From: Anaerolineales bacterium
GTDB lineage: Bacteria; Chloroflexota; Anaerolineae; Anaerolineales; UBA4823
Direction of reading: 5' to 3'
DNA: 64,000 nucleotides
Assembly: GCA_003105035.1 (NCBI GenBank)
Contig: PQAL01000002.1
Span: 1 to 64,000 of the forward strand
A program made the translations under genes and the position numbers. Shown piece by piece: positions 8,454 to 53,140 of the stretch (positions are counted from its first letter, which is position 1; each line of letters opens with the position of its first letter). The notes under the pieces are model-generated. The model saw only the letters and a list, made by a program, of their open reading frames with translations. It did not search any database and was not told the DNA's origin.

Positions 8454-8463
8454 GGGTACCGCG

Positions 8464-9432: not shown

Positions 9433-9480
9433 TGATCTGTTTTTATAACCTTTATTTTATTTAGAGATGGGAGAAAAATC

Positions 9481-10365: not shown

Positions 10366-10368
10366 GAA

Positions 10369-11577: not shown

Positions 11578-11658
11578 CCTGCCTGGCATATTCGATATTT
11601 TCTCCGAGCGTTTCTACGCCGGACGACCTATTTTCATTATCGTAGATGAGGATGTTTT

Positions 11659-17819: not shown

Positions 17820-19079
17820 TTAAGGAGCAACAAGCAAGCTAGCCGCCCAAAAATCGCGTACTTTACTAACGTTTTCCCAGTCGAAGACTGGATCCATCTC
17901 CCAGACCTGAGGCAGTAGCTCATCCAAAGGCAGGTTGTCTTCAAAGACTGGAAGACCTTCAGCCGCTGGGTATGTACCAATCTCGTTCCAGGGTTCAAAA
18001 CCTGCTTCCGAGAGAATAAAACGGATGAAGAGTTTGGCTGCGTTAGGATGTGGGGCATTGTTGGCTACAGCAAGGAAGCTGGTCTTGAAGATGCCCATGA
18101 CCGGTTCCATACCAAAACAAGGAGCCATGTTCAATTCGCCTTCTTGGGTAGCTTCGTAGCTCGAGTAGCCTGTCCAACCAAAACCAGGTTCTTCGCCTTC
18201 GGGTAATTCAAGCCCGGCAAAGGCTGCATCCACCATATCGCCATCGTCAAGAACCACCACATCGTTATACGCCAGTTTCTTGAGCCACAGATAGCCGGCA
18301 TTCTCCGGGACCATACCAGAAGCATCCGCTACTGCAAGCTCATCGGCAGTCCAGTCTTTGCCATAAAGATCCTTATAAGCCTGGGCCATTTCGTCTGCAT
18401 TTTGAACGAAAGTGGCAATCTTTGCCATGGTGCTGACGTCTGACATCGGGTCTTCCATGAAGAATTTACCCTTGTAAACGGGTTCTGTTAGCTGCCAGAT
18501 GTTGGTGAGTGGACAGCCATCCGGGTGGATCTTGTTGTTATACCCGATTACATCGGTCGAGTGGCGCGCGACTGCAAACGGACGCTCATCAGTTAGCTCA
18601 GGGATAGACACATCCCTTGGAACGAACGACCATAACCACTGGTTTGGAACGAATTGGCCAAACAGGATGTGCCCATCGCTGTTGAACCAAACATCCCCAA
18701 CCACATTCCCGCTTTCCTGCTCTGCAGCCATCTTGGTATCGATGCCATCGGTGTCAGCAACATCGAATTCAATGTCTGGGTATAGGGCATACCATGCATC
18801 AGGCAAATCCTCAACTCCGCCTGAATTGGCATAGACTGTCACCTTCCCTTCCTTAATTGCCGCAGCTTCGATAGCCTCCCAGTCATCAGTGGCTGGCTGG
18901 TAAGGACCAAAACCGTTATCCTTTGCCCATTGTTCGTTCGGGGTGAGTGATGGCTCAGGGACAGTCGTGGATGCTACTGGCTCGATTGCAGGCGCTGTTG
19001 TTGGGGTAGCCGTGGTAGTACAACTGGTAATGATACTGAACAAAATGCAAATTACTAAAAACCTCACAAAAATCTTCAT
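17820..19079 (-). CDS. ABC transporter substrate-binding lipoprotein (family 1, AfuA/FbpA-like)
   Basis: A 419-residue secreted lipoprotein. It starts MKIFVRF with a hydrophobic stretch and a lipobox ending ITSC, then a Thr/Pro/Ala linker. The mature part has the family 1 binding-protein pattern (EGKVTVYANSGG, KMAAEQESGNVVGDVWF, later SEAGFEPWNEIGTYPA). Such proteins are often labelled ferric-binding, but the neighbouring Tyr pair used for iron is not evident. The related AfuA binds hexose phosphates. The start has TAAGGAGGA; earlier ATG codons lack a site. ATPase and fused permease genes lie upstream in the same cluster. Confidence 0.85.
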   Translation of the reverse strand: MKIFVRFLVICILFSIITSCTTTATPTTAPAIEPVASTTVPEPSLTPNEQWAKDNGFGPYQPATDDWEAIEAAAIKEGKVTVYANSGGVEDLPDAWYALYPDIEFDVADTDGIDTKMAAEQESGNVVGDVWFNSDGHILFGQFVPNQWLWSFVPRDVSIPELTDERPFAVARHSTDVIGYNNKIHPDGCPLTNIWQLTEPVYKGKFFMEDPMSDVSTMAKIATFVQNADEMAQAYKDLYGKDWTADELAVADASGMVPENAGYLWLKKLAYNDVVVLDDGDMVDAAFAGLELPEGEEPGFGWTGYSSYEATQEGELNMAPCFGMEPVMGIFKTSFLAVANNAPHPNAAKLFIRFILSEAGFEPWNEIGTYPAAEGLPVFEDNLPLDELLPQVWEMDPVFDWENVSKVRDFWAASLLVAP

Positions 19080-19241
19080 TACATCCTCCTTACTGTTAGT
19101 TAGCCTGAAAATAAGTGAAAAAATCCAAAGCACTGAGTTTATTTTGAGTTCGTTTGAATAGTCCTCCTTTCAATGGTTTTTTCTCCCATTTCATTAATTA
19201 CAACTGTCATTAATTCATCTAGTGATTCCCATGATCCTTGA

Positions 19242-20330
19242 TTAATTATTGGGGGTAATCAAATTTCCGCTTGCTTTATCGTAGAGGTTTAGCGTTTCAG
19301 GATTAAATTTTAACCAGATCCGGTCATCCATCTGGATTTTGCTGATGCCCATGACTCTAACGGTCAGTTCCATCTCACCCAGGCGAGCAATAATGGTCGA
19401 GTCTGCTCCGGAGGGCAGGACGGAATAGGCGCTGAACTCCACTGCTTCAGGGAGAGGTTGGGAGAATATGGCGATATCTTCAGGCCGAATGCCTACTACT
19501 ACGCTGCCATATGCGTTACCGGTATTTATCGTGATCATAAATTTCCCTAGGTCGACAGAATTCTTCCCACTAACCACACCATCCAGCAAGTTCACTTTTG
19601 GATTACCAATGAAATCCGCTACGAAAAGATTAGCGGGGAAATGGTAGACCCTATCGGGGGTATCATACTGTTGCACAACACCTCCTTTCATGATAGCAAT
19701 GATGGTGGACATGGTTAATGCTTCCACCTGGTCGTGGGTCACATAGATGGTGGTAGCGCCGGAAAGATGATGCAACCGTTTGAGTTCGGTGCGCATGTCC
19801 ATGCGCAGGCGGGCATCCAGATTTGAGAGCGGTTCGTCCATCAGGAACACCTTCGGGCGATAGGCGAGCATACGAGCTAATGCAATGCGCTGCTGTTGGC
19901 CTCCACTCATTTCGCGTGGATAACGATCTTCAAAGCCTTCCATCTGTACTTCTTTGAGCGATTCTTTCACCCGCTTTTCCATCTCAGCCTTGGGCATTTT
20001 CTGGATTTCCAGGGCAAAAGTAATGTTCTTATCCACCTTCATATGCGGCCATAAGGCATAATTCTGGAAAACCAACCCTAAATCGCGCTTACTGGAGGCA
20101 AGCGAAATACCCTTGTCGTAAGAAAAAACCAACTTATTACCAATATAGATCTCGCCGCCATCTGGGTCTTCCAAACCAGCCACGCAGCGCAGCAGCGTCG
20201 TCTTGCCGCACCCAGATGGCCCCAAAAGTGTTACGAAGTTCCCTGGTTCGATTTCCAAGCTGACATGATCCAGGGCAACCACTTTACCAAATTTTTTTGT
20301 TAAATTTTTTATACTGATGGTTGTTTCCAT
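19242..20330 (-). CDS. ABC transporter ATP-binding protein (FbpC/AfuC/PotA type)
   Basis: A 362-residue ATPase. It has Walker A GPSGCGKTT, the signature MSGGQQQRIALAR, Walker B VFLMDEP, the D-loop SNLDARLR and switch histidine in VTHDQ, followed by a C-terminal TOBE regulatory domain from about residue 240. It energises the fused permease encoded 12 bases upstream and works with the lipoprotein encoded after it. A clear GAGGAC site precedes the start. Confidence 0.9.
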   Translation of the reverse strand: METTISIKNLTKKFGKVVALDHVSLEIEPGNFVTLLGPSGCGKTTLLRCVAGLEDPDGGEIYIGNKLVFSYDKGISLASSKRDLGLVFQNYALWPHMKVDKNITFALEIQKMPKAEMEKRVKESLKEVQMEGFEDRYPREMSGGQQQRIALARMLAYRPKVFLMDEPLSNLDARLRMDMRTELKRLHHLSGATTIYVTHDQVEALTMSTIIAIMKGGVVQQYDTPDRVYHFPANLFVADFIGNPKVNLLDGVVSGKNSVDLGKFMITINTGNAYGSVVVGIRPEDIAIFSQPLPEAVEFSAYSVLPSGADSTIIARLGEMELTVRVMGISKIQMDDRIWLKFNPETLNLYDKASGNLITPNN

Positions 20331-20342: not shown

Positions 20343-22178
20343 TTACATCCCGAGACCCTTTTTTAGACTGCCGCCTGAGAAGCGACTGATGATGGCGTTC
20401 CCTATGATTGTGATGATTATCAAGATCAGGACGACAATGTTCCCCATTTGATCTCTTCCGGCTTCGATATACCTCATGGTCAGGCTTGCCAGCAACTGGG
20501 TGTCACGGGTGACAAGCAGGATAATTAAGGACAGCTCGCGCATGGTAGTGATAAACGTCAGCAGGAAACCGGAAATGAAACCACTCATGGTTAGCGGAAA
20601 GATGACACGTCTGAAACGCTGCCAGACACTAGCACCGGACACTTGGGCAGCCTCCTCCAGTTCGTGCCCCACCTGCATCATAGCTGAGACCCCTGAACGC
20701 GAAGAGTAGGGGATGTGTTTAGCCACCGAGACAATCACCAACAGGGCAAATGTTCCATATAAGGAAGGCAATGGTCCTATCTTCTTGGCGAACATGGCAA
20801 TATAAACCGCGCCAAAAGCGATGCCCGGGATGACATACGGAATGTATGCAAGCTGGTCGATCAGCTTAGCAAGCCGGGTACCACGGCCTTTAACGATGGA
20901 ATATCCAAGCAGGACACCAAGCAGGGCGGTGAAAAACGATGTATACAAGGCAAGCCGTATGGAATTCCAGGCGGTTTTGTAGATTTTCGGGTTAAGAAGG
21001 ACTCCCGGTTCGCCGTCGTTGTACAACGGGTTAGGTTGTCCGATCCAGTTCTGCAAAGTCAGATTGCTTAAGCTGTAATCCCCCGTCCGCAGCAGGAATG
21101 TGTCATAAATCAGCAATCCCAACGGTACTACAAGAACCATCAGCTGAAAACTGATCACGACCACAAAGAGAACCTTCTTCATATTCCTTAATTTACTTGG
21201 ATTGGAGACAAACCCTCGCCCCCCGATTGTCTCATAACTCCTGCGCGTACCGGTCAGTCTCTGGTTGAGCGAAATGGTTACCATGGAGAACATGATCAGG
21301 ACGATCGCCAGCACGAAGGCATCAGCCTTGTCTCCAGCTGCCAGACTGCCTCGGATCATGGTAGCAACCACATAATACCGAACCGGTGAGCCCAGGATAT
21401 TCGGTCCGCCGAACGTGCCCATCACCTTGGAGAAAGTCATAATGAAACCAGACAGTAAAGCCGGTAGAACCAACGGCAGGGTGATCTTCCGTAAGATACG
21501 CCATCGGTCAGCACCCATCAGTTCTCCTGCTTCTTCAAGGTTGGAATCGATCGACATCAGCGCTGCTGAAACAAATAGAAAAAAGAAGGTGTAATAGTGC
21601 AGCGCACAACAAATGATAATCGGCACGGGTCCATACGACAACCAGTCGGGCGGACTTACTCCAAAAATGGATTCAATCATTCCCGGGGCTCCACCGACTG
21701 TCCTATTCTTGAACAGCACCAGCCAGGCTTGAGCTAATGTCCAGGAAGGCATAATGTAGGGCAAAACCGCTAGTGAGGTGACAAGCTTTCTACCAGGCAT
21801 ATCGGTACGCACAACCAGCCAAGCCAGCGAACCGCCGATGATTAGAGCAAGGACAACCGTGCCCATGGCGATGGTCATCGAATGCATCAGGGGGGTGTAG
21901 GTATATATTCGGCCAAATATCCCCGTCGACATCCTGATCCAGTGAAAAAGCGTGAATTCACCGTTCACAGCACCAGGGATACGGCTGGTATCAACAGGCT
22001 GCCAGGTAAACGTGGTCTCAACCAGTTGATATAGAGGGTTGACGACCATTATGGCCATCAGCCCGAGCATGATCAAAGCTAAGACGACGTGTGGTTTGGT
22101 CAGCCAGTGAAAGAATCTACGGGAACTAGCCTGAAGCTTCAGTAAGAAGGGTTGTGAGGAGGTCGCAGGGATTTGCAT
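20343..22178 (-). CDS. ABC transporter permease, two fused membrane domains (FbpB/AfuB type)
   Basis: A 611-residue membrane protein with two homologous halves, each with about six membrane segments and an EAA loop that contacts the ATPase: EEAGELMGADRWRILRKI in the first half and EEAAQVSGASVWQRFRRV in the second. Fused permeases of this kind occur in ferric, thiamine and sugar-phosphate importers. An unusually large extracytoplasmic loop follows the first membrane segment (residues about 55-95), as in AfuB. It is transcribed after the RpiR regulator with a 27-base gap. Confidence 0.88.
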   Translation of the reverse strand: MQIPATSSQPFLLKLQASSRRFFHWLTKPHVVLALIMLGLMAIMVVNPLYQLVETTFTWQPVDTSRIPGAVNGEFTLFHWIRMSTGIFGRIYTYTPLMHSMTIAMGTVVLALIIGGSLAWLVVRTDMPGRKLVTSLAVLPYIMPSWTLAQAWLVLFKNRTVGGAPGMIESIFGVSPPDWLSYGPVPIIICCALHYYTFFFLFVSAALMSIDSNLEEAGELMGADRWRILRKITLPLVLPALLSGFIMTFSKVMGTFGGPNILGSPVRYYVVATMIRGSLAAGDKADAFVLAIVLIMFSMVTISLNQRLTGTRRSYETIGGRGFVSNPSKLRNMKKVLFVVVISFQLMVLVVPLGLLIYDTFLLRTGDYSLSNLTLQNWIGQPNPLYNDGEPGVLLNPKIYKTAWNSIRLALYTSFFTALLGVLLGYSIVKGRGTRLAKLIDQLAYIPYVIPGIAFGAVYIAMFAKKIGPLPSLYGTFALLVIVSVAKHIPYSSRSGVSAMMQVGHELEEAAQVSGASVWQRFRRVIFPLTMSGFISGFLLTFITTMRELSLIILLVTRDTQLLASLTMRYIEAGRDQMGNIVVLILIIITIIGNAIISRFSGGSLKKGLGM

Positions 22179-22205: not shown

Positions 22206-23087
22206 CTAGTAAAGTGTTTCATTGGTTTTCTTCAGGCGCGCGCGCATTTGATCCAGCTTATCCAGGTTTGTCATTACATACCCCTGGTCTTCCTGAGCAA
22301 CTGCCAATAGAAGAGTATTAATAATAGTCATAGGCACAACCAAGGAATGGAACTCTGAAACAGGACCGCGCTTTGCAGAGAGCACCACGTCTGCTTTATC
22401 ACCTATGATTGAGCCAAGCGTGTCGGTTAAGATGATCACCGGGCATTTGATTTCATTCGCATAATCCAGGATTAGCTGCAGAGTCCCCGAGATATCAAAA
22501 AAACATATCGCAAACAAGAGGTCCTGATCGGTCATTGACAACAGCGGTTCCAGCATTTCTCTACCGGCAGTGGTCAGTGGAACAACTTGCCACCCAAAAC
22601 GACCTAACCGAATTTCCATTAAATTTACCAGTGAGACAGATGGTCCAACTCCAAAGATAAAAATGCGTTTACGTGAGCGGATCATCTCCACAGCCCGATT
22701 CAGAGATTGACGATCAATTGTCTCAAGGGATAAGGTCAGGTAATCGATCTCGGAAACGACCAGCCGCTCAAAGATATCGCCGCCCTGGCGCAGGTCTTCA
22801 AGCCTGCCGCGCAGGCGGGCTGAATGGGTGACTCTTTGCCTGAAAGCCTCCTGAATAACAGTCCGCATGGCCGGGTAGCTGGCGAACCCAAGGGTACGGG
22901 CGAAGCGTACCAGGGTAGCCTCGCTTAAACCCAACCGGTCGGCAATCTCACCCGCGGAAAGAAAGGCAGATTCCTCCTGGTTTTTCCGCAGGTAATTGGC
23001 AATACGCTTCTCACTTTTGGTAAGTTGTTGGTAGTGATCGCTGATGATCTGGCTGAAATCAATGATTCTTTGATCGCTTGTTTCCAT
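22206..23087 (-). CDS. RpiR/MurR-family transcriptional regulator (HTH + SIS)
   Basis: A 293-residue regulator. The N-terminal HTH (about 25-85) contains LTKSEKRIANYLRKN and ADRLGLSEATLVRFARTLGF, which is the RpiR pattern. The C-terminal SIS domain (about 120-250) has RIFIFGVGPSVSL and would bind a phosphosugar. Family members control sugar-phosphate, sialic acid and MurNAc-phosphate use. It is the first gene of the ABC cluster, supporting a phosphosugar signal. The start at 23087 has AGAGGGA; an ATG 12 codons earlier lacks a site. Confidence 0.88.
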   Translation of the reverse strand: METSDQRIIDFSQIISDHYQQLTKSEKRIANYLRKNQEESAFLSAGEIADRLGLSEATLVRFARTLGFASYPAMRTVIQEAFRQRVTHSARLRGRLEDLRQGGDIFERLVVSEIDYLTLSLETIDRQSLNRAVEMIRSRKRIFIFGVGPSVSLVNLMEIRLGRFGWQVVPLTTAGREMLEPLLSMTDQDLLFAICFFDISGTLQLILDYANEIKCPVIILTDTLGSIIGDKADVVLSAKRGPVSEFHSLVVPMTIINTLLLAVAQEDQGYVMTNLDKLDQMRARLKKTNETLY

Positions 23088-23162
23088 AGCGTCCCTCTTC
23101 CGTATATCGGTAGCAAGAATCATACAATTCAGGAAAACATGAAAGTTCTGTTACATTTGAAG

Positions 23163-25117: not shown

Positions 25118-26329
25118 CTATTCTGCCTCAGGGGCATCATCCAAAACAGCTTTTATCTCCGGAGTGGTCCACAATGCCGCACCGGTCGTATCCACCAGCA
25201 GGTCGCAGGTTTCCATCTGGGGGATGAATGCAATTTGAGCCATGATAAATTGCTCTTTAAAAAAGCGGTTGCGAAAGTAGGTGGGTTCATATTTCTTGCG
25301 ATAATCGATATCCCGCTTCCATTTGCGTTTTATCCTGACAGGGTCATCGGTGAGATAAACGACTTTGATGTTTATCAGATAGGCGATTTCTTCGAGTAAG
25401 AAGGGAAAATTCCCTTCCATAAAAATGATATCTGCGGGTTCTACCTCAATAGGCACACCGCCCGGCTTCAAGTTACCATCCAGGTCATGGCTTGAAGTGG
25501 CATAGATGAAATCATACCTCGGGATGCTGATCTTTTGCCCCCGACAGATCTGGGCCAGGCATGATTTTAATAATTCAAAGTGCAAAGCGGCCTTACCCTG
25601 GGTATGGATACCCTTGGCCTCCCGGTAATCCCGGTCGGTCAGGAAGTTATCCATCTCAATCGAAGTGGTCTTCTGACCCACTTTACGGAATGCAGTGTGT
25701 AAACGCTCCACGATTTCGGTTTTGCCGGCTGCGGTAGGCCCGGCAATGGCAAGCAGTACCGGGGTTCCCTGCTTCGTGATCAACTTTTTTACGGTTTCGA
25801 TAAAGAGGGCGTCAATCTCCTGGTTGGCATGTTTGAAATCGCGGTATCCGATGTCCTGGCAACGCTCTAACCGTTTCTGCTTTGGCTCAAACTGCCGGTA
25901 AGGTTGGTTGCCCAGGTGGGATAGAACCTTTTCAGTGAAATAATGGGTGCGGTGGAGAAAGTAAAACCCACGCACGTCAAAGTAGAAGTGCTGGTTTACC
26001 CACTCGGGTGGGTAATCGCCAGTGACCAGGCCGACGAAGATCATATTAGTCAGATTGATGATCTTCTCATCCAGAACGATGCGACCGTCGATAATGGGCT
26101 TGATCTGGATACCGTCATAAAACGGCCGTGAATTTACCCGTTGCTCAATCTCCGCAGTCGAGTCCAACATGACTGATGACCAGCCTGTATCAGGAATCAG
26201 GTTATTTAATCCATACCGAAACTCATATAGTTCCATGCCTCCGACTGCGGGGGCGAGTATTTTCATCTTGCGGAACAATCGTTGGGTAAAGTCATCCAGG
26301 TTATTCAGAGCCCTTCCAGCCTTAGTCAT
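25118..26329 (-). CDS. Uridine kinase-like P-loop protein with unknown N-terminal domain
   Basis: A 403-residue protein. The C-terminal half has a Walker A GPTAAGKT near residue 200 and further features of the phosphoribulokinase/uridine kinase family (IEMDNFLTDRDYREAKG, IPRYDF, IIFMEGNFPFL, and RKWKRDIDYRKKY). The first 170 residues, rich in aromatic and charged residues, are not recognised. The start at 26329 is preceded by GGAGGG; a longer reading frame would overlap the MFS gene by about 100 bases and lacks a site. It likely phosphorylates a nucleoside or sugar, but the substrate is unknown. Confidence 0.7.
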   Translation of the reverse strand: MTKAGRALNNLDDFTQRLFRKMKILAPAVGGMELYEFRYGLNNLIPDTGWSSVMLDSTAEIEQRVNSRPFYDGIQIKPIIDGRIVLDEKIINLTNMIFVGLVTGDYPPEWVNQHFYFDVRGFYFLHRTHYFTEKVLSHLGNQPYRQFEPKQKRLERCQDIGYRDFKHANQEIDALFIETVKKLITKQGTPVLLAIAGPTAAGKTEIVERLHTAFRKVGQKTTSIEMDNFLTDRDYREAKGIHTQGKAALHFELLKSCLAQICRGQKISIPRYDFIYATSSHDLDGNLKPGGVPIEVEPADIIFMEGNFPFLLEEIAYLINIKVVYLTDDPVRIKRKWKRDIDYRKKYEPTYFRNRFFKEQFIMAQIAFIPQMETCDLLVDTTGAALWTTPEIKAVLDDAPEAE

Positions 26330-26358
26330 ACTGCAAGACCCTCCGACCGCATCATGAT

Positions 26359-27687
26359 TTATGCCATTTCCCGCACGCGCGGGAACTTGAAGAAAACGAA
26401 GATTCCATAAAGCAAGGAAAGCGTGGCACCGATTGCCACCGATAATGGTGCGCCGATCCAATCGGCGACAATGCCAGCCTGTAAGCCACCCAGCTGGTGC
26501 ATCCCTTGCGTCACCAGCGAATATTGGCTCATCACCCGGCCGCGCAGGTTATCGGGAGAATTAATCTGCACCAGGGTGTTGGCTAGCGTGTTCTGGAACA
26601 CCTGTGCCATACCTACCAATGCCATGAGCACTAAGGAGGTGATGAATAGCTGCGAAGAGACAAAAGCTAGCAACAAGACCGGCAGGCCCAGATTTCCCAC
26701 CGATAGCAGCCGCCCACGCCGTGCGGCCGGCGGGAGTGAGGCTACTAACACTGCCCCTGCCACCGCGCCGATCCCGATGGCAGAATATAGCAATCCCAGC
26801 GGCAGGGCTTCCGGCTGCTGGCAGGTCAGCGTCCGCAAGGGTCCGTTACAGAAAAAATCGACCAGTGGCTGGGCACTGCCACCCAGCATGTTATCGGCGA
26901 AAACGGGTAGCAAGGTCTGGTAAGGCCGCGACAGAAAAGAGGTGACCGCCACCAGGCTCATCAGCACAAGCAGCAATTGCTGTTTGATCACAAAGCGGAT
27001 GCCTTCACGCGCATCGGCGAGTACCTGTGACAGATGCTGTTTCGAGCTGGTCGGTTGAGGCAGGTTACGCATGAACAGTAAGCTGATGATCACCGCCAGG
27101 AAGCTCAGGCTGTTCAGGAAGAACGCTACTGCTTCACCCCGCGTGGCAACCACTATACCCGCGATCACCGGTCCCAGGGTACGGGCTGTGTTGTGGATGG
27201 CCGAATTCAAGCCTATGGCGCTGGTCAGGTCATCTTTACCCTCCACCATCTCCACCACGAAGGACTGTCGAGGCGGCATGTCAACTGCCTTCAACACCCC
27301 CAACAGGAAAGCCATCAGATAAACCTGCCAGACTTGAACAAGCCCCGTCCAGGTGAGGGCTGCCAGGATGACTGCCTGGATCAGCATGAGGCTCTGGGTG
27401 ATTAACAATATCTTGCGCTTGGAAACCCGATCGGCCAGCGTGCCACCCCAGAAGGAAAAGGGCAGGAGGGGGAGCACGGTCATCAGGTTTACGATGCCAA
27501 GCGACACCGCTGAACCAGTCAGGCGGTAGACCAGCACCTGTTGAGCGACTGACTGCATCCAGGTGCCGATCAGCGAGACCCCCTGCCCAAAGAACCACAG
27601 TTTATAGTTGCGGTGCCGCAAGGCCCGAAAAGTCGTGCCTGCTTTCGACCCAGGATTAATTCCAGGCGGATGGATCCTAAGCGCCAT
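26359..27687 (-). CDS. MFS transporter (MFS_3/EntS-like)
   Basis: A 442-residue membrane protein with about 12 hydrophobic segments. The start FRALRHRNYKLWFFGQGVSLIGTWMQ and the cytoplasmic loop GGTLADRVSKRKIL are typical of the MFS_3 drug/siderophore exporter group. A second conserved loop, NLRGRVMSQYSLV, lies in the C half. An unusual loop with two cysteines (FFCNGPLRTLTCQQ) follows the seventh segment. The ATG at 27687 overlaps the end of apgM by 11 bases. Export of a sugar or metabolite is likely; the substrate is unknown. Confidence 0.85.
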   Translation of the reverse strand: MALRIHPPGINPGSKAGTTFRALRHRNYKLWFFGQGVSLIGTWMQSVAQQVLVYRLTGSAVSLGIVNLMTVLPLLPFSFWGGTLADRVSKRKILLITQSLMLIQAVILAALTWTGLVQVWQVYLMAFLLGVLKAVDMPPRQSFVVEMVEGKDDLTSAIGLNSAIHNTARTLGPVIAGIVVATRGEAVAFFLNSLSFLAVIISLLFMRNLPQPTSSKQHLSQVLADAREGIRFVIKQQLLLVLMSLVAVTSFLSRPYQTLLPVFADNMLGGSAQPLVDFFCNGPLRTLTCQQPEALPLGLLYSAIGIGAVAGAVLVASLPPAARRGRLLSVGNLGLPVLLLAFVSSQLFITSLVLMALVGMAQVFQNTLANTLVQINSPDNLRGRVMSQYSLVTQGMHQLGGLQAGIVADWIGAPLSVAIGATLSLLYGIFVFFKFPRVREMA

Positions 27688-28882
27688 ATTTTTCCAGCCG
27701 CCGGGCATTGGCCAGGGCGATGGGCATGATGGAGGTTGCCGGGATGGTTCCCAGGCTACCCCTGGAACAGGCGCGCTCACCGAACTCAGCCGTCCCATCC
27801 GGGCAGATAAAATGTGAGTAGACCAGAAGCGGCACAGGGTGCCACGAGTGAAATTTCATGACTGCCGGAGAGGAGTGATCACCACCCACAATAACCACAT
27901 CGGGCCGCAGAGCCATCAGCCGCGGCAGGAATGCATCCACCGTCTCAATCGCCTTGACCTTACCTTCGAAATCTCCCTGCTCGCCGCAGGTATCCGTCTG
28001 CTTCACATGGAGGTAAAAGAAATCAAATTGATCCCAGTGCTGCTCAAGGGCCTCGAATTCATCCTGCAGAGAGGGCCCTGCTAGCGGGAGTACCTGCATG
28101 CCCACTAGGCGGGCAACCCCGCGGTACATACCATTCACCGCGATCGCTGCTGCATGCAGTCCGTAGCGTTCCTGGAAAGCGGGCAGCGCCGGCGGCCGGG
28201 CAAAGCCACGCAGCAGGATCATGTTGGCGGGTGATTGTCCTTCCAGTAGCTTTTGCGCTCGATCGATGAACTGATTGGCCAGGCTGGCTGCTTTTTGCGA
28301 CCGACCATCCAGGGCGCGTACTGGCCAGGGAGCTATGCCTGTTTTTTGAGGGTCGGTTTCGGTTAGCGCATCATCCAGGCCCGCTGCCCGTAGGATGAAT
28401 GCAAAGCGATGTTCTTTGACAGGCTCGATGAAGGTTTCAGCCTCTGCCAGCTTTATCGTGGAAAGAAGACTGGATAAATGCCGGTTGACCTCGGTGGAGA
28501 TACGGCCGGCGCGGCGGTCGATGATGCACCCATCTGAACCGACCGTGCAGTAATTGCCGCGCGCTGCCAGGTCGTCTGGCCCAAGCTCAAAATCTACCCC
28601 CAGGGCTTCCATGGCACCCCGTCCTATCTCGTGCTGGATGGGATCGTACCCAAACAAAGCCAGGTGACCCGGCCCACTGCCAGGGGTGATGCCAGGGGCA
28701 ACCGGGATGGTCAGGCCCAGGTTGGACCGTTCTGCCAGAGCTTCCAGGTTGGGGGTGTTGGCAGTCTCCAGCTCGGTCTTGCCGCCGGGTTCACGTGGCA
28801 AGCCTCCCAGGCCGTCCATGATGAGCATGACGATTTTGGTCTGAGCAGGGGTGACTAATCTCTGGATCAGGTCCGAATCCAT
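27677..28882 (-). CDS. apgM: Archaeal-type 2,3-bisphosphoglycerate-independent phosphoglycerate mutase (ApgM family)
   Basis: A 401-residue member of the alkaline phosphatase superfamily. It has the metal-binding MLIMDGLGG near residue 20, TANTPNLEALA, the nucleophile serine in GSGPGHLALFGYDP, GEQGDFEGKV, and the GGDHSSPA plus HSWHPVP metal sites. These are hallmarks of ApgM, which interconverts 3- and 2-phosphoglycerate; some relatives are phosphonate or homoserine-path enzymes. The next gene upstream encodes a second, unrelated-type iPGM, so this pair is unusual. GAGG precedes the start. Confidence 0.85.
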   Translation of the reverse strand: MDSDLIQRLVTPAQTKIVMLIMDGLGGLPREPGGKTELETANTPNLEALAERSNLGLTIPVAPGITPGSGPGHLALFGYDPIQHEIGRGAMEALGVDFELGPDDLAARGNYCTVGSDGCIIDRRAGRISTEVNRHLSSLLSTIKLAEAETFIEPVKEHRFAFILRAAGLDDALTETDPQKTGIAPWPVRALDGRSQKAASLANQFIDRAQKLLEGQSPANMILLRGFARPPALPAFQERYGLHAAAIAVNGMYRGVARLVGMQVLPLAGPSLQDEFEALEQHWDQFDFFYLHVKQTDTCGEQGDFEGKVKAIETVDAFLPRLMALRPDVVIVGGDHSSPAVMKFHSWHPVPLLVYSHFICPDGTAEFGERACSRGSLGTIPATSIMPIALANARRLEKYGA

Positions 28883-28975: not shown

Positions 28976-30568
28976 TCAGCCCTTCTCAATGCTGTGATGT
29001 CTGCCCGTTCCATACACCAGGGCTTCATATACACGGCGGGTTTTCTGGTAATTCCCATCGCGATCAAGCGCTATGCCGCGCCCGACGCCGGTAACGATCC
29101 TCCCGATACCAATCTCCCGGACTTTGCTTTCAAATAATCGAAGCAGCTCCGGTGCGCTGCCTGGTTCCGTGCTGCGCCCGTCAAAGATCACATGGATGTA
29201 GACATCGTTGAGTTCCTGTTTTTTTGCCATGCGTAGCAACGCCAGGGGATAATCGATCGTACCGTGTGAGCTCTTTTCGCTTAGCAGGCAGATCAGGTGC
29301 AAGCAGGTGTGCCTGTCCTTTACGCCGCTAATTGTTTTCAGGAATATTGGGTTGGTATAGAATGATCCATCCTGCATGGCGGCATCCAGCCTGACATCAT
29401 CCTGCTCGATGACCCGGCCTGCCCCCAGGTTGATATGCCCGGCTTCTGAGTTACCATTTTTACCAGCTTGCAAGCCGACTGCTTCACCAGCCGCTTCCAG
29501 CTGTGTATGAGGGTATGACGTTAACAGGCTATCCCAGTAGGGTGTACGGGCTTGATGAATCGGGTTAGTTTCATCAGGCTGGCCAATTCCCCACCCATCC
29601 AGGATCACCAATAGCACCTTCATCGCTATGGGCATGCCAGCCTGGGTGATCAAGCATCGCCCACTCATTTCTGCTGGAGTATCGATGCCCTGGATCGACA
29701 GGATGGTAGGAGCCACATCCGCAAGCTTCCCCTCCATCAGCTCGATCGGATTCAAATCGCTCGGTGTAGCCAGTATGAAAGGCACAGGGTTTGTGGTATG
29801 CGAGACATGCGGGGAGCCATCTGTAGTGAAAAGCTCTTCCAGGTTGCCGTGATCTGCGGTGATCAGCACGGCATATTCCGCCGGCAGGGAAGCCTGCACC
29901 ACCTGTTGTAAATAATGGTCGATAGCTTCAGCGCACAGGATCTTGGCTGCGCTCGATTGGGTGTGCCCGATAACGTCGCCGTTGGCAAAGTTGACCACAA
30001 TCAGGTTGTATCCTTTGTTAATCCCCTCCACCACCTGTCGGGAAATCTCCGCCAAACGTAATTCCGGGTTCTGCTCCAGCGGACTATCTCTTAGCGATGG
30101 TACGTGAACATCTGTCTCGCCAGCAAAAGGCTGGTTGGTGCCCCCATTGAAGAAAAATGTGACGTGGGCGAACTTTTCCGATTCCGATATGTGCAGTTGG
30201 CGTAACCCTGCCCGGCTGATCGTTTCAGCCAGTGTGTGCTTGATTTGCGTTGGGGCAAACGCTACCGGCAGGTCTTTAAACTTCTCGTGGTAAAGGGTGA
30301 GGATGACAAAGGGCTGGTTTTCAAATTTACAGCGCGGGAAACCACCTGTTTCAGGCTCAACAAAAGCTTCCGTTAGCTGGATCTCCCGCTCGCCGCGGCG
30401 CAGGCAGAAGATGACTGCATCACCATCCTGGATGCGCCCCAATGGCCTGTCAAGCGCATCTGCCAGGATTACCGGCTCGAAGGAGTAATCGGTCTGGCCG
30501 AGCGCATAGAGCTCAGCCAGTGCCTCAGCCAGCGCTGCACCTCCAAAGGGCGGATGATCTACGCACAT
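28976..30568 (-). CDS. gpmI: Circularly permuted cofactor-independent phosphoglycerate mutase (GpmI family)
   Basis: The 530-residue protein has every part of GpmI in swapped order. Residues 1-315 match the canonical C-terminal part: R58 and R61 in the substrate region, SEKFAHVTFFFNGG with K132, metal ligands D198 and H202 in NGDVIGH, D239 and H240 in TADHGN, H257, and the usual end (LADVAPTIL, MSGRCLI). From M316 the normal start begins, MKVLLVILDGWG with D324, then the nucleophile S374 in NGNSEAGH, H435, DGRST (canonical DGRDT) and the DRDGNY..RVYEALVYG segment, where the protein stops. One continuous frame covers both, so it is neither split nor frameshifted. Length equals a normal GpmI (about 510). 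The start at 30568 (or 30574) lies about 20 bases after the HAD stop, behind AAGGAA. Confidence 0.85.
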   Translation of the reverse strand: MCVDHPPFGGAALAEALAELYALGQTDYSFEPVILADALDRPLGRIQDGDAVIFCLRRGEREIQLTEAFVEPETGGFPRCKFENQPFVILTLYHEKFKDLPVAFAPTQIKHTLAETISRAGLRQLHISESEKFAHVTFFFNGGTNQPFAGETDVHVPSLRDSPLEQNPELRLAEISRQVVEGINKGYNLIVVNFANGDVIGHTQSSAAKILCAEAIDHYLQQVVQASLPAEYAVLITADHGNLEELFTTDGSPHVSHTTNPVPFILATPSDLNPIELMEGKLADVAPTILSIQGIDTPAEMSGRCLITQAGMPIAMKVLLVILDGWGIGQPDETNPIHQARTPYWDSLLTSYPHTQLEAAGEAVGLQAGKNGNSEAGHINLGAGRVIEQDDVRLDAAMQDGSFYTNPIFLKTISGVKDRHTCLHLICLLSEKSSHGTIDYPLALLRMAKKQELNDVYIHVIFDGRSTEPGSAPELLRLFESKVREIGIGRIVTGVGRGIALDRDGNYQKTRRVYEALVYGTGRHHSIEKG

Positions 30569-30591: not shown

Positions 30592-31320
30592 CTACCTGCC
30601 CGGAAACACATCCAGCAATTCGCTGAACCCATGGATGATCAGGTCTGGCATCGTTTCTCCCTTTGGTGGATCCTTGGCAAGGGCCTGAGCATTCATCAAA
30701 AGGATGATCATGCCGAACCCGGCATCGCGAGTGCCCACCACGTCTCGGGCCGGGTTGTCGCCCACGTAGACGCATTTTTCGGGAACGACTCCGATTCTCC
30801 GGGCTGCCTCCCAGTAAACTTCCGGGTCAGGCTTGCGCCGACCTAGCAGCGAGGAAAGGATTACGGATTTGAAATACGGGCTGAAGCCATCTGCTTCCAG
30901 CCAGTCAGGAATCTCCTTGCTGGAAATGACGTTGCTGATGATTCCTAAACGATAACCGCGCCGGTCCAGCTCGACAACCACCTGCCTGGCATCCTTCTGA
31001 AGCTCCCGTCGGCCATTCGACTGGCGGAACTGGTAGGTCAGCTCGGCGGCGATTGGAGCGAGCTGTTCAGCCGGGTATTCGGGCAGCAGCCAACGGCTCC
31101 AAAGCTCGCTTTCAGGCGCTTCAATCATGGTTTGAAACGCCCACTTCCGATAGGTTTTATAGCCTTCATCGATGCGCTGGCAAAGTTCTTCTGGGCTCTC
31201 CTGGCTTCCAACCAGCTCGGCGATTTTCTTTCTGGCTTGTGATTGGTGGGCTTCATCCTTGACCAGGACGCGCATGGTGTTTCCAAGGTCAATAAAAATA
31301 GCTTCGATTTCAGGTCTCAT
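30592..31320 (-). CDS. HAD-superfamily hydrolase with DxG motif
   Basis: A 242-residue HAD protein. Motif I is FIDLGNT, with nucleophile D11 but Gly at position 13 where phosphatases have the second Asp. Motif II is GIISNV, the lysine motif GRRKPDPEVYW, and motif IV YVGDNPARDVVG. The cap contains TYRKWAF and LPEYPAE, shared with its neighbour gene at 31393. The start at 31320 aligns with that paralogue; an earlier ATG at 31368 lacks a good site. It may be a phosphatase with unusual acid/base chemistry or another phosphotransferase. Confidence 0.8.
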   Translation of the reverse strand: MRPEIEAIFIDLGNTMRVLVKDEAHQSQARKKIAELVGSQESPEELCQRIDEGYKTYRKWAFQTMIEAPESELWSRWLLPEYPAEQLAPIAAELTYQFRQSNGRRELQKDARQVVVELDRRGYRLGIISNVISSKEIPDWLEADGFSPYFKSVILSSLLGRRKPDPEVYWEAARRIGVVPEKCVYVGDNPARDVVGTRDAGFGMIILLMNAQALAKDPPKGETMPDLIIHGFSELLDVFPGR

Positions 31321-31392
31321 GCGTTCCACCTTCGGGAGGTTATCGGGTAAGCTTTGGAACTTATCCATTCAAACCAGGTCGGCTGAGGTTGA

Positions 31393-32127
31393 TTACAGCA
31401 CACGCGCAGGAAAAATCTCTAGCAGGTCGCTGCAATCGCGGATGATGTGGTCGGGACGGTTCTCTCCCTGCGGTGGTTCTTTGGCTTCTTTCTCCGGGGA
31501 CATCAGGATGATTACCATGCCAAAACCTGCTTTGCGGGTGCCGACCACATCTCTCAACGGGTTATCGCCAACATATACGCAGTGGGCTGGCTCAATTCCC
31601 AGGCGGCGTGCTCCTTCCCAGTAGATTTCCGGTCCGGGTTTGCGGTAACGGATCTTGGAGGAAAGCACCACGGCTTTGAAGTAACGCGTCAGCTGGTCAT
31701 GTTCCAACCAATCGGGGATCTCTGTCTCAGTGATCGTGTTGGCGATGATCCCCAATGTGTAGCCGCGCCGGTCCAACTCGATGACAACCTGCTTGACATC
31801 CGGGCGGGGGATACGTCGTCCGTCCTTGTCCCGCCAAAGGCGGGTGAGTCGCCCGGATTGCGGGGCGATCGCCTCAGCCGGGAAATCCGGCAGCAGGAAA
31901 TGGGTCCACAGCTCTTTCTCAGAGGCTTCGGTCAGGTTTTCGAAAGACCATTTACGGTAGGCTTTCCAGCGCTGATCCAGCTTTTCAAAAAATATCGCCT
32001 CCGGTTCATTGGCTCCCACCAGGTGCATGAGGTTCTGGCGTGCCTGAACCTGGAAGGCTTCGTCTTCAACCACAATCCTCAGGGTATTTCCCACATCCAG
32101 GAAGATTGCCTTGATATCCAGCTGCAT
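31393..32127 (-). CDS. HAD-superfamily hydrolase with DxG motif (paralogue of the next gene)
   Basis: A 244-residue HAD protein closely similar throughout to the gene at 30592-31320. It has FLDVGNT (D11, G13), GIIANT, YRKPGPEIYW and YVGDNPLRDVVG. Shared phrases such as VVIELDRRGY-like and EIPDWLE show a tandem duplication. It is the first gene of the minus-strand operon; AAGGAGGAGG precedes its ATG, and the predicted promoter at 32183-32210 lies just upstream. Confidence 0.8.
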   Translation of the reverse strand: MQLDIKAIFLDVGNTLRIVVEDEAFQVQARQNLMHLVGANEPEAIFFEKLDQRWKAYRKWSFENLTEASEKELWTHFLLPDFPAEAIAPQSGRLTRLWRDKDGRRIPRPDVKQVVIELDRRGYTLGIIANTITETEIPDWLEHDQLTRYFKAVVLSSKIRYRKPGPEIYWEGARRLGIEPAHCVYVGDNPLRDVVGTRKAGFGMVIILMSPEKEAKEPPQGENRPDHIIRDCSDLLEIFPARVL

Positions 32128-32314: not shown

Positions 32315-33349
32315 ATGGCTACAACCATTAAGGATATTGCCAGGCAGGCCGGGGTTTCTCACACCACGGTATCGCGCGCCTTGCACCATAGTCCGCTCAT
32401 CTCCCAGGAAACTACCCGGCGGATACATGCCATTGCCCTGGAGCTCAACTACCATCCGAGTTTTGCAGCCCGTAGCTTGAAAACCAACCGTAGTCAGGCC
32501 CTGGGGGTGATCGTCAGTCACATCGACGATCCATTTTTCAGTGAAATCCTGCAGGGGATTGATGATGTGGCTCAGGCAAATGGCTATAGCCTGTTCATCG
32601 CCGCCTCCCAGCATGAGCTTGGGCGTGAAAAGGCTATTGTACAGACCATGCGCGAGCACCGCGTGGATGGCGTCATCCTGTGTTCTCCCCGCTTTGCAAG
32701 GGAGCAGGGACATCCGCTGTACTCATTCGATATCCCCCTGGTGGCCATTAACAACCAGGCAGAGGATGAATATCCCTTCTCGATCTACCACGATGATGTG
32801 GATGGTGCCCGGCAGGCATGTGAGCATTTGCTTGGTCTTGGCCACCAGCAGATTGCCTTTCTGGGTGATGCTACTTCCGGGCGCACGACCCAGGAGCGGC
32901 TGGCAGGCTTTCAGCAGACGATGCAAAGATCCGGATTAAAAATATCTGCAGAAGATATCCACCTGGTAGCTGGCAGCGGTGCCAGGCAAGGATATGAGGC
33001 CGTGGAATATTTCCTGGGCTTGGAGCATGTTCCCTCCGCTTTGATTTGTTATAACGATATGCTGGCAGTCGGAGTGCTCAAGGGGTTACGCCAGGCTGGC
33101 CTGCGGGTGCCGGAAGACATCTCCGTTACCGGCTTTGACAACATCGTTGTGTCAGACTATACCACTCCACCGCTTACCACCATCGACCAGCCCAAACGTT
33201 TTCTTGGTGCGGAGGCGGCGCGCATGATGCTTGAACAGCTTGGTGAAATACCTGGTCCTGGCGATGGATCAGTTAAGGTTAAACGGCTCAAGGGGATGCT
33301 GCTGATCAGGCAATCCACCTGTCGTGTGGCGCACACTGAGGTTCTATGA
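32315..33349 (+). CDS. LacI-family transcriptional regulator
   Basis: A 344-residue regulator. It starts with the standard LacI HTH (TTIKDIARQAGVSHTTVSRAL) and the hinge helix HPSFAARSLKTNRS, followed by a periplasmic-binding-protein-like effector domain (LGVIVSHIDDPFFSEIL to GADNIV-type TGFDNIVVSDYTTPPLTTI). It is the first gene of the uronate/inositol operon and overlaps the next gene by four bases (ATGA). The effector may be tagaturonate, fructuronate or an inositol derivative. Confidence 0.88.
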   Translation: MATTIKDIARQAGVSHTTVSRALHHSPLISQETTRRIHAIALELNYHPSFAARSLKTNRSQALGVIVSHIDDPFFSEILQGIDDVAQANGYSLFIAASQHELGREKAIVQTMREHRVDGVILCSPRFAREQGHPLYSFDIPLVAINNQAEDEYPFSIYHDDVDGARQACEHLLGLGHQQIAFLGDATSGRTTQERLAGFQQTMQRSGLKISAEDIHLVAGSGARQGYEAVEYFLGLEHVPSALICYNDMLAVGVLKGLRQAGLRVPEDISVTGFDNIVVSDYTTPPLTTIDQPKRFLGAEAARMMLEQLGEIPGPGDGSVKVKRLKGMLLIRQSTCRVAHTEVL

Positions 33350-34821
33350 AAAAACGATTGGCATCAGCCAGACTCAATCTACTCACGCACTCGTTGGTTA
33401 TCACAGACCAGGCTGAATATGGCCTGGTGGCAACATCCCAGGGCCTCCGCCTTGCGGTATGGATGCCAGCAGATGCGAAGGCGATCAGGAAGTTTCGAGG
33501 TGAGACATCCGAATTTGAGGGGGGTACGCTGCTCATTGGTGAGCTCAGCCATGCCAATGCTGTTTCCTTACGCTCGCGCTTGGAATGGCTGTGCCCGGCT
33601 TTACTGGGGTTGAAAACTTCCGCCGGCCTGGGCGACCGTATCGGGGTCGCCACACCCGGACATGTGCGTTCTGTGCGAGATATGAATGGGTCAATCGCCC
33701 CGATCTTTGCCCAACAGTCGATACGTGAGATGCAGCGTACTGGTCGCAGCCCGCAACAGGTGCTGGATGATGCCACCTGGGGCATTTTTGAAGAGGGATG
33801 GCAAACCGGGACCGGGGCAGATGCCGATCATTTGAAGACTAACCAGGATATTGATGCCTGCTTCGAGGCTGGGTTCTCTTTCTTTACCTTTGATCCCGGC
33901 GAATATGTCGATGCGACTGCCCAGCAGGCGCACAAGAAAACGCTGGAAGAAAAACTGAACGGTATCCCCGAATATCTACAGCCCTGCGCAACTGGGCTGG
34001 TTGGAACGTCGCTGGAGGTTGAGGGGCATCATATTCATCTCAGCAAGGAAGCGGTAGTCAGGGCGGCAGTCAAATATGGCCGGGCCATCGACCATGTTGT
34101 AGATATGTACGAGCACCTGAAATATGTGGCAGGTTATCTGCCATTCGAGGTGGAGGTATCGATGGACGAGACAGTCTCACCTACCACTCCAGCCGAGCAT
34201 GTATACATCGCCAGTGAGCTTAAGCGCATGGGGGTCAGGTGGGTCAGTTTTGCCCCACGCTTCGTGGGTCAATTTGAAAAAGGCGTGGAATATATCGGTG
34301 ATCTCCTGGCTTTCCGGGCTGATATCGCGGTACACGCTGCCATTGCCAGGCGGTTCGGCCCCTATAAACTAAGCTTGCACTCCGGGTCCGATAAATTCAG
34401 CCTCTATCCCCTGTTCGTGGAAGCCACGCGTGGCCTGGCTCACCTGAAAACCGCTGGCACCAGTTATCTTGAGGCTTTGCGGACCATTGCAGCGATTGCC
34501 CCGGTATTTTTTAAGGAAATCTATGCCTTTGCCCGGGAGCATTTTGAGGCCGACCGTCTCAGCTATCACCTTTCGGCGGAACTTAGGCGGGCACCCATGC
34601 CAGCTGATATTAAAGATGCTGGCATCCTTTTTGAGCAATTCGACGCCCGCCAGGTTCTGCACGTCACTTTTGGATCGGTTTTAACTGAGAAAAACGACGA
34701 TGGAAGTCCCCGGTTTTACGATCGCCTCATGGAGATCCTGCGACAGAATCGTGAAGCTTACTTTGACAACCTGGAGAGACATTTCAGGCGCCATTTAGAG
34801 CCATTTCGATATATCGAATAA
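33346..34821 (+). CDS. uxaE: Tagaturonate/fructuronate epimerase
   Basis: A 491-residue protein that I recognise as the UxaE family, first described in Thermotoga maritima, where it epimerises D-tagaturonate to D-fructuronate at C2. Family features include GLGDRIGVATPGHVR, the ADADHLKTNQDIDACFEAGF stretch, TFDPGEYVD, and DFHLHSGSDK-like LSLHSGSDKFSLYP near residue 345. The protein has a large TIM-like body and no signal peptide. It replaces the two-enzyme route used by E. coli. The next gene encodes an SDR of the type that reduces fructuronate to mannonate. Confidence 0.85.
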   Translation: MKKRLASARLNLLTHSLVITDQAEYGLVATSQGLRLAVWMPADAKAIRKFRGETSEFEGGTLLIGELSHANAVSLRSRLEWLCPALLGLKTSAGLGDRIGVATPGHVRSVRDMNGSIAPIFAQQSIREMQRTGRSPQQVLDDATWGIFEEGWQTGTGADADHLKTNQDIDACFEAGFSFFTFDPGEYVDATAQQAHKKTLEEKLNGIPEYLQPCATGLVGTSLEVEGHHIHLSKEAVVRAAVKYGRAIDHVVDMYEHLKYVAGYLPFEVEVSMDETVSPTTPAEHVYIASELKRMGVRWVSFAPRFVGQFEKGVEYIGDLLAFRADIAVHAAIARRFGPYKLSLHSGSDKFSLYPLFVEATRGLAHLKTAGTSYLEALRTIAAIAPVFFKEIYAFAREHFEADRLSYHLSAELRRAPMPADIKDAGILFEQFDARQVLHVTFGSVLTEKNDDGSPRFYDRLMEILRQNREAYFDNLERHFRRHLEPFRYIE

Positions 34822-39616: not shown

Positions 39617-39623
39617 GGTGACT

Positions 39624-40643
39624 ATGAAACGACAGGTTAATATGGCAGTGATTGGCACGGGGCGCATTGGCAGCGTGCATACGCGTAACCTGGTACGCAG
39701 CGTCCATGAGGCCAACGTGGTGGCGGTCTGTGATATCCGCCTGGAGGTGGCTCAGGCAGTGGCAGATGAGCTGGGCATCGCACGTGTGGTGAGGGATTAT
39801 CACGAGCTGCTTGAAGACAAGGATATTGAAGCCCTCTTGATCGCCACCAACACCGATACGCATGCGTTTATTGTCAAGGATGCCGCCCTGGCCGGTAAGC
39901 AGATATTCTGTGAAAAGCCACTTGCCCTGCATCTCGAGGATATCGATGAGGTGATGAAAACGATCGAAACCACCGGTGTGAAGCTCCAGGTGGGATATAA
40001 CCGCCGCTTTGATAAAAGCTTCCAGCGTGTTCACCAATTGGTAGCCTCTGGCGAGATTGGTCGGCCATGCATCCTGCACATCACCAACCGCGACCCCGAA
40101 CCGCCCTCCCTGGAATATGCGCGCACCTCTGGGGGCATGTTCCTCGATATGAGCATCCATGACTTTGATATGGTGCGCTACCAGATCGGTGAGGTAGATG
40201 AGATCTACGCCGTCGGCAACGTGCTGGTGACCCCTTACCTGAAGGACATCGGCGATATAGACGTGGACATCATCACCCTGAAATTCTCCAATGGAGCCAT
40301 GGGCACGATCGATAACAGCCGCCAGTGTGTCTATGGGTATGACCAGCGCCTGGAAGTCTTCTGTTCGCTTGGCACAGCTATGGCTGGCAACGAATATGAG
40401 AATACCGGCCTGATGGGTGATAAAGCGGGCTTCCACTCAGCCAAAGTGCCCTACTCATTTATCGAACGCTACGCCGAGTGTTATATTGCCGAAGTGCGCC
40501 AATTCGTCCAAAATGTACGCGATAGCAAGCCCGTGTCGCCGACCGGTTACGACAGCCGGGCATCCGTATTGCTGGGCATGGCCGCCTGGGAATCTTACCG
40601 GCAGAACCGGCCGATCAGCATGAAAGAATTTACCGGCAATTAG
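39624..40643 (+). CDS. iolG: myo-Inositol 2-dehydrogenase (Gfo/Idh/MocA family)
   Basis: A 339-residue Rossmann dehydrogenase. It has VIGTGRIGSVHTRNL, the FCEKPLAL motif with the catalytic Lys, and the inositol-dehydrogenase pattern GGMFLDMSIHDFDMVRY that gives the active-site Asp and His. It would oxidise myo-inositol to scyllo-inosose with NAD. The order with IolN, IolM and IolO downstream matches the Thermotoga inositol pathway. The ATG at 39624 has GAGG five bases upstream; a GTG two codons earlier is possible. Confidence 0.85.
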   Translation: MKRQVNMAVIGTGRIGSVHTRNLVRSVHEANVVAVCDIRLEVAQAVADELGIARVVRDYHELLEDKDIEALLIATNTDTHAFIVKDAALAGKQIFCEKPLALHLEDIDEVMKTIETTGVKLQVGYNRRFDKSFQRVHQLVASGEIGRPCILHITNRDPEPPSLEYARTSGGMFLDMSIHDFDMVRYQIGEVDEIYAVGNVLVTPYLKDIGDIDVDIITLKFSNGAMGTIDNSRQCVYGYDQRLEVFCSLGTAMAGNEYENTGLMGDKAGFHSAKVPYSFIERYAECYIAEVRQFVQNVRDSKPVSPTGYDSRASVLLGMAAWESYRQNRPISMKEFTGN

Positions 40644-51220: not shown

Positions 51221-51262
51221 AATAACTCCGTCAAGTGGATAGTACAAAGAGTAGGATAGGGT

Positions 51263-51310
51263 AAAAATCGTGAGGCGCCTGCGCAGGTTTGAGAAGCCTG
51301 CCGGCACCTC
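51263..51310 (-). terminator. Terminator-like hairpin between two TIM-barrel genes
   Basis: On the minus strand an imperfect long stem (GAGG...CCTC outer, GCAGG...CCTGC inner) is followed by GATTTTTACC. It lies just after the stop of the gene ending at 51339 and may end or dampen the transporter operon. Confidence 0.55.
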
Positions 51311-51338
51311 GGCTGGGCACTTAAATAATTAAGTAAGT

Positions 51339-52166: not shown

Positions 52167-52196
52167 TGCTCCTCCAACACTCTTCGAATTTGATGA

Positions 52197-53072: not shown

Positions 53073-53111
53073 GTGTTGCACTCCTGCTGGTGATTTTCTA
53101 TATATTTTAGT

Positions 53112-53140
53112 TGAGCCTGCTCAAACTTCGAGCAGGCTCA
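53112..53140 (-). repeat. 11-bp perfect hairpin after the sugar-binding-protein gene
   Basis: TGAGCCTGCTC (53112-53122) and GAGCAGGCTCA (53130-53140) pair perfectly around a 7-nt loop. No T-run follows on the minus strand. Position suggests a transcript-end-protecting hairpin for the highly needed binding protein. Confidence 0.6.

Follow-up and report, generated by a model that had tools for sequence, protein, structure and literature searches.

A circularly permuted branch of the cofactor-independent phosphoglycerate mutase lineage and its possible link to inositol phosphates

Introduction

The 64,000-nucleotide stretch of DNA analysed here (the window) contains a gene whose product resembles GpmI, the cofactor-independent phosphoglycerate mutase (iPGM). 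The initial annotation described this gene as circularly permuted, with the C-terminal section of GpmI preceding the N-terminal section in a single 530-residue frame. Such an arrangement raises two questions: whether the rearrangement is genuine, and whether the encoded enzyme is still a phosphoglycerate mutase (PGM). The gene proves to encode a true circular permutant of the iPGM lineage. On balance, it is probable that the protein no longer serves as a glycolytic mutase, and that the form found in the window (type A), together with HAD hydrolases and an ABC importer, acts on imported phosphorylated inositols. The fold of a glycolytic enzyme has here been permuted in nature, and the permuted form is retained in distant bacterial lineages and comprises two subfamilies, a case in which the rearrangement of a two-domain enzyme accompanies both a changed active-site signature and a changed gene context.

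Among the titles and abstracts of open-licence papers retrieved, none described a permuted PGM or a circular permutation in the alkaline phosphatase superfamily. The permutation treated in the relevant portions of two retrieved papers (PMC2876114 and PMC6957218) concerns other proteins, and a term search for the word stem 'permut' gave no occurrence in the searched text of a survey of bacterial PGMs (PMC2964296).

Results and discussion

Segment order and predicted fold

The permuted gene reads from an ATG at position 30568 of the minus strand and encodes 530 residues in a frame free of stops (Table 1). Its start codon is not certain, as the open frame extends upstream into the neighbouring HAD gene, where an alternative ATG would give an overlapping product of 599 residues; in alignments, the similarity of relatives to the window protein starts at about residue 9. 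Pfam domains occur in the order Metalloenzyme (best stretch 105-295), then iPGM_N (best stretch 395-524), and a PF01676 score of 198.2 bits, against a gathering score of 24.3, places the protein in the alkaline-phosphatase-like Metalloenzyme superfamily. In phmmer comparisons with the chain of PDB entry 1EJJ, residues 16-308 match chain residues 219-510 (182 bits) and residues 318-523 match chain residues 6-211 (170 bits), so nearly the entire canonical iPGM chain is present with its halves swapped. Domain order and phmmer matches thus both agree with the segment order first described for this frame. The old termini are joined through a linker of about 10 residues (308-317), while the new termini fall between two helices near residue 212 of the Geobacillus chain, to which model residue 9 aligns.

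The AF2 model of the window protein (pLDDT 94.1, pTM 0.90) has one helix at the new N-terminus (10-22) and another close to the new C-terminus (507-519). All 22 of its PDB matches at E<=0.001 are iPGMs, in keeping with a GpmI-like fold. Structure comparison used the unrotated model, with VIA rows at Z 12 and above considered, and the Foldseek and VIA alignments span about half of it (266 to 336 columns; iPGM rows 279 to 299 residues), as is expected when sequential aligners meet a permuted chain. The lowest-rmsd superposition among the top rows places model residues 12-309 on residues 215-505 of 4NWJ (Z 22.4, rmsd 1.9 A, 289 residues aligned).

The best NCBIfam match is the PGM model TIGR01307, which aligns in two stretches and, at 467.8 bits, exceeds its cut-off of 330.65. 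Scores for NF003897 (380.8 bits, cut-off 862), the apgM model TIGR00306 (36.5 bits, cut-off 320) and the phosphopentomutase model NF009049 (31.7 bits, cut-off 254) fall below their thresholds. Curated annotation with TIGR01307 would therefore label permuted genes as phosphoglycerate mutase, which calls for caution. An Rfam scan of the window gave no match at gathering thresholds.

Recurrence in independent genomes

The same order of segments was found in genomes of the window's order, its class and the Bacillota. Another genus of the window's family carries the same single frame at 64% identity, and the gene is present in 2 of the 25 sampled genomes of that family, the window's own included. 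A sample of 400 genomes from the order yielded 37 with a match at E<=1e-30, and 23 of these, counting the window genome, have the permuted order, the gene of one (G213) being split over two contigs. The remaining 14 have separate or C-half matches, and the six that were read (L005, L044-L048) follow the canonical order. Across the class, the 28 genomes of 396 sampled that match at E<=1e-90, again counting the window genome, all carry a full-length, single-piece gene in the permuted order. Ten of these genes are of type A (the window's and others at 60-66% identity to it) and 18 belong to a second form, type B, at 38-44%. In a scan of public genomes, a top-ranked sample rather than a census, seven permuted genes occurred among the best 80 of 593 confirmed loci, all seven in organisms named Clostridia or Bacillota. 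One belongs to Butyricicoccus pullicaecorum strain ET57, whose record is not marked as a metagenome assembly. Within the order of Butyricicoccus, 1 of 394 sampled genomes has the permuted gene, namely the Butyricicoccus genome itself. Viral origin was also considered, and rejected when a scan of viral contigs gave no relative.

The apparent permutation could in principle result from assembly or binning that fused two partial gpmI genes, given that many carriers are fragmented drafts and that, among the named Bacillota, a metagenome origin is indicated in most records. However, dozens of assemblies made independently of one another, as well as a named strain, have the same order and breakpoint. 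Type A relatives (50-66% identity) and type B relatives (38-44%) occur in independent assemblies as one open frame each, and the permuted proteins have a common motif set that is absent from the 80 canonical proteins compared. The recurrence of the permuted order in one frame across independent genomes excludes chance or misassembly, and we regard an artefact as extremely improbable. The reservation attached to the initial annotation, that an assembly join might underlie the gene, is thereby removed, and the circular permutation that it proposed is upheld by segment order, recurrence and the iPGM-like model together.

An altered active site

A residue table of 135 proteins (80 canonical, 37 type A and 18 type B) covered 15 key positions that we take to serve catalysis or to bind metal or substrate in the Geobacillus enzyme. 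The truncated L075 protein and the split G213 gene were left out of this table and of the trees described below. Fourteen of the 15 positions are identical in all 135 proteins. Those kept include H123, R153, R185, R191, R261, R264 and K336, which form the substrate ring. The one exception is the equivalent of Asp154 in the DGRD motif, a position that contacts the substrate in canonical enzymes: it is Asp in 80/80 canonical proteins, Ser in 37/37 of type A and Gly in 18/18 of type B, and is thus replaced in all 55 permuted proteins. The catalytic serine and two-metal site (D12, S62, D403, H407, D444, H445, H462) are the same in all three groups, and PMC5382265, in the portion consulted, lists matching metal residues for the Caenorhabditis elegans enzyme. 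Further signatures of the permuted family are a D to E change directly before R264, (K/Y)SSHG in place of GGVHS around H123, and an M to L change two residues upstream of R191. In type B proteins (L160-L177; 18 of 396 class genomes), an LGRRGE motif stands in place of the DGRDT region. Alignments also agree with the residue-level claims made earlier for the window protein, namely that D198, H202, D239, H240, H257, D324, S374, R58, R61, K132 and R465 are kept and that DGRST replaces DGRDT.

With 14 of 15 key positions invariant, phosphoserine chemistry is probably kept in the permuted family. More specifically, since the nucleophile is retained, as are the two metal sites and the ring of Arg, His and Lys residues around the substrate, the enzyme most likely still moves a phosphoryl group through a phosphoserine. 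The permuted family resembles GpmI/iPGM (TIGR01307; PDB 1EJJ, 1O98, 4NWJ) in fold, phosphoserine, two-metal site and substrate ring, and it differs in the order of its halves, the replacement of Asp154 by Ser (type A) or Gly (type B), the family motifs SSHG and RGERE, and genome context.

A single clade of uncertain parentage

In a mixture-model tree of 68 rows (29 permuted and 39 canonical proteins, rotated to canonical order), the permuted proteins form one clade (SH-aLRT 99) that splits into type A (support 99) and type B (support 100). The permuted proteins likewise came out as one clade in a fast tree built earlier, which contained 28 proteins of type A and 80 canonical ones. As types A and B break the chain at the same place, one permutation event would be the simplest history.

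The sister group of this clade is unsure, because the two trees disagree. The fast tree placed the permuted proteins nearest Bacteroidota (support 80), whereas in the 68-row tree the nearest canonical-order relatives are divergent gpmI genes of the Patescibacteria-like L077 and L078 (support 82). At both of these loci (L077:2518-5664 and L078:791-3934), an ordinary gpmI gene and a divergent one with a GNSEAGH motif form a head-to-tail pair, with gaps of 0 and 3 bases, respectively. An established model derives circular permutations from gene duplication, and such a tandem pair could provide the starting point. The divergent paralogue has the GNSEAGH motif in common with the permuted family but differs from it in its canonical order and in keeping the DGRD aspartate. 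When the halves were analysed separately, the N-half tree grouped the permuted proteins with the tandem paralogue (support 99), while the free C-half tree separated them. A hybrid origin of the two halves finds no support, since in an AU test joining the C-half to the tandem paralogue was not rejected (p 0.835) and the constrained tree had the higher likelihood. The canonical iPGMs of L044 and L045, from the window's order, group with two named Chloroflexota iPGMs (support 90), and the window is taken to come from Chloroflexota, class Anaerolineae.

Other PGM genes in carrier genomes

Another PGM gene is present in 52 of the 53 carriers examined (26 genomes, 23 of the window's order and three Bacillota, plus 27 further genomes of the class, nine with type A and 18 with type B), two of them as partial matches. 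Among the 26, dPGM (TIGR01258, at least 359 bits) occurs in 21, and in the other five an iPGM of at least 515 residues was found whose iPGM_N domain is contiguous; G252 is the sole genome of the 26 with both. In the 27 class carriers, neither dPGM (E<=1e-30) nor iPGM_N in unpermuted form (E<=1e-5) gave a match. ApgM was found at E<=1e-20 in 26 of these 27, in 24 over the cut-off and in G455 and G639 as partial matches below it, and all nine class type A genomes have at least one apgM match at a distance from the permuted gene. In G733 (89% complete), no PGM gene was found besides the permuted one. A role as the sole glycolytic PGM is thus rejected for 52 of the 53, whereas in G733 the permuted gene may have it.

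These data bear on whether the protein is simply a functional phosphoglycerate mutase, its order permuted neutrally and the gene retained as an isozyme or regulated copy. The TIGR01307 score, the invariance of 14 key residues, the preserved fold and the case of G733 all speak for such a reading. Against it stand the replacement of Asp154 in every permuted protein compared, the presence of another PGM gene in nearly all carriers, the NF003897 score far beneath its cut-off, and the ties of type A to importer, HAD and inositol genes set out below, and we therefore consider it unlikely. The phosphoglycerate mutase label of the initial annotation is thus doubtful, given the other PGM genes, the loss of Asp154 and the genomic surroundings; the permuted enzyme is probably no longer a glycolytic mutase.

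The gene cluster in the window

Directly upstream of the permuted gene lie two HAD genes of the same kind. In the other direction the order is apgM, MFS-like, kinase-like, PHP and PfkB proteins, RpiR, ABC permease, ATPase, putative binding protein and HAD-HAD fusion, and inositol-catabolism genes follow on the opposite strand beyond a divergent LacI-type regulator (Table 1).

Table 1. The permuted gene and features of its neighbourhood, with positions in the window.
Feature	Position	Strand	Evidence or remark
HAD-HAD fusion protein	16198..17625	(-)	TIGR02253 181 bits, cut-off 170, two stretches
Putative solute-binding protein	17823..19133	(-)	recognised through L059 relative; own Pfam match at E<=1e-5 absent
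ABC ATPase	19245..20330	(-)	best NCBIfam of L059 relative UgpC, below cut-off
ABC permease, fused type, PhnU2-like	20346..22178	(-)	called on L059 relative, below cut-off
RpiR-type regulator (HTH + SIS)	22209..23123	(-)	domains called on L059 relative
Protein with C-terminal phosphoribulokinase/uridine-kinase-like domain, in many type A clusters	25118..26461	(-)	NCBIfam matches below cut-off
apgM-type phosphoglycerate-mutase homologue, canonical order, next downstream	27677..28882	(-)	PRK04135 567 bits, cut-off 468
Circularly permuted iPGM-like enzyme, type A	28976..30568	(-)	residues 1-315, canonical C-terminal section; 316-530, canonical N-terminal section
HAD hydrolase, conserved neighbour directly upstream	30592..31368	(-)	best NCBIfam TIGR02253, below cut-off
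Second HAD hydrolase, same kind as first	31393..32127	(-)	family scan
LacI-type regulator, divergent from cluster	32315..33349	(+)	reading of sequence, no family scan
UxaE, tagaturonate epimerase	33346..34821	(+)	PF16257 479 bits
IolG, inositol 2-dehydrogenase	39618..40640	(+)	TIGR04380 405 bits, cut-off 355
IolN, 3-dehydro-scyllo-inosose hydrolase	40711..41832	(+)	NF041098 308 bits, cut-off 245
IolM, scyllo-inosose 3-dehydrogenase	41895..43085	(+)	NF041097 505 bits, cut-off 450
IolO, 5-keto-L-gluconate epimerase	43139..43981	(+)	NF041099 342 bits, cut-off 300

The genome also encodes a dPGM on a different contig (G000:C11), yet the apgM-type gene adjoins the permuted one, and the apgM product may likewise have a non-glycolytic role. 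ApgM proteins (TIGR00306, PRK04135) belong to the same PF01676 superfamily and in the window to the same cluster, but unlike the permuted enzyme they are of canonical order, about 400 residues long and equipped with a different inserted domain (PF10143). The matches of the importer's solute-binding protein are weak. In L059, the binding protein has as its neighbour a HAD-HAD fusion similar to that at the far end of the cluster. A LarA-like protein (35730-36992) is encoded between the UxaE/SDR genes and IolG; it matches best a model for a putative hexonate epimerase that depends on nickel (176 bits, far under the cut-off of 500), and a D-mannonate oxidoreductase is also encoded near the cluster.

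Context across type A and type B loci

Thirty-four type A loci were examined: the window, 26 from further members of its order or class, and seven from Bacillota. HAD genes are present in 31 of them, being missing in G352 and L075 (in both, the gene is at a contig end) and in L074, while an ABC permease and an RpiR regulator each occur in 20 of 34. Inositol-catabolism genes were found at 15 of 34 type A loci and at none of the 18 type B loci (Fisher p 0.0008), a comparison that is uneven, since the type A stretches reach further on the LacI side while the type B flanks are shorter (3.5 to 18.5 kb), and in which the p value is overstated and a guide only, related genomes having been counted separately. 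Within these same flanks, none of the 18 type B loci has HAD, ABC permease or RpiR genes either. As type B lacks such a context, the permuted fold itself is not tied to inositol.

Among loci of the window's class with at least 20 kb in hand, 13 of 15 have inositol genes, G385 and G252 being without. Two gene sets are involved, of Bacillus type (IolG/IolB/IolD/IolE) and Thermotoga type (IolG/IolN/IolM/IolO), both encoded beside type A genes. IolD, IolB and IolG occur together at seven loci of the class, and the set of IolN, IolM, IolO, UxaE and IolG is found, whole or in part, at six, the window included. All five genes of the latter are present in the window, G255, G233 and G302, and part of them in G383, where the contig ends, and in G357 (IolG and UxaE only). 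Inositol genes also occur at two Bacillota loci (L070 and L076). Curated models identify IolD and IolG in L052, IolE and IolD in L070, and IolG in L076. At the other 19 of the 34 type A loci, many of them on short contigs, the stretch covered has no inositol gene; the longer stretches among these are G385 and G252 (36 kb each) and G472, G534, G490 and G639 (19.5 kb).

At the genome level, IolG shares a contig with the permuted gene, at most 25 kb away, in 16 of the 38 genomes with type A and in none of the 18 with type B; the distance in Butyricicoccus is 18 kb. Anywhere in the genome, IolG occurs in 32 of 38 type A against 11 of 18 type B genomes, a weak enrichment (Fisher p 0.089, again no more than a guide). 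The inositol link is not universal, since six of the 38 type A genomes (G472, G403, G441, G191, G728 and G1156) have no IolG at E<=1e-60.

A proposed role in the use of phosphorylated inositols

The two inositol gene sets diverge after the first oxidation, with IolG and free inositol common to both. Since the cluster stays much alike while the adjoining pathway changes, what it supplies is most likely inositol. The importer, the RpiR/SIS regulator, the phosphatase-like HADs and the pair of phosphoryl-transfer enzymes are consistent with the import of a phosphorylated inositol. We propose that phosphorylated inositols would enter the cell through the ABC importer, and that the type A enzyme, with the HADs working alongside it, would either shift phosphate on them as a mutase or release it as a phosphatase. 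Free inositol would then reach IolG and the inositol pathway encoded nearby. Substrate, reaction and joint action with the importer and HADs are here inferred from sequence and neighbourhood.

To our knowledge, described inositol gene sets have no permuted mutase, HADs or ABC importer of this kind. More tentatively, an ancient permutation of an iPGM may have founded a new family in which type A became an inositol-phosphate mutase or phosphatase, forming with the HADs and importer an undescribed uptake route that could feed either inositol pathway. If the inositol-phosphate reading is correct, these loci offer testable genes for the uptake and use of phosphorylated inositols.

The importer might instead bring in some other phosphorylated compound, such as a sugar acid phosphate, a phosphonate or a glycerophosphodiester, with inositol genes adjacent merely as fellow carbohydrate clusters. 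The importer's nearest curated models, all below cut-off, are of phosphonate and glycerol-phosphate systems (PhnU2 and UgpC in the L059 cluster); UxaE, the D-mannonate oxidoreductase and the LarA-like protein also lie near in the window; and of the 19 loci without an inositol gene, six have at least 19.5 kb in hand. Such coincidence accounts poorly for a link that recurs with both inositol pathways and in Bacillota as well as the class of the window, and we judge this alternative to be quite improbable. Circumstantial support for inositol phosphates comes from human faecal incubations that degrade phytate fast, where, according to the portion of PMC12482443 consulted, Butyricicoccus and Ruminococcaceae are among the enriched taxa; the former is a carrier genus and the latter the family named for carrier L075.

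Two further regions of the window were recognised by reading of the sequence, outside the family scan. Positions 3067-12555 encode look-alikes of NADH dehydrogenase/molybdenum hydroxylase-type and 2-oxoacid oxidoreductase-type subunits, and positions 50261-58245 hold several sugar isomerase-like genes together with a look-alike of a ribose-type sugar ABC transporter (53170-58245).
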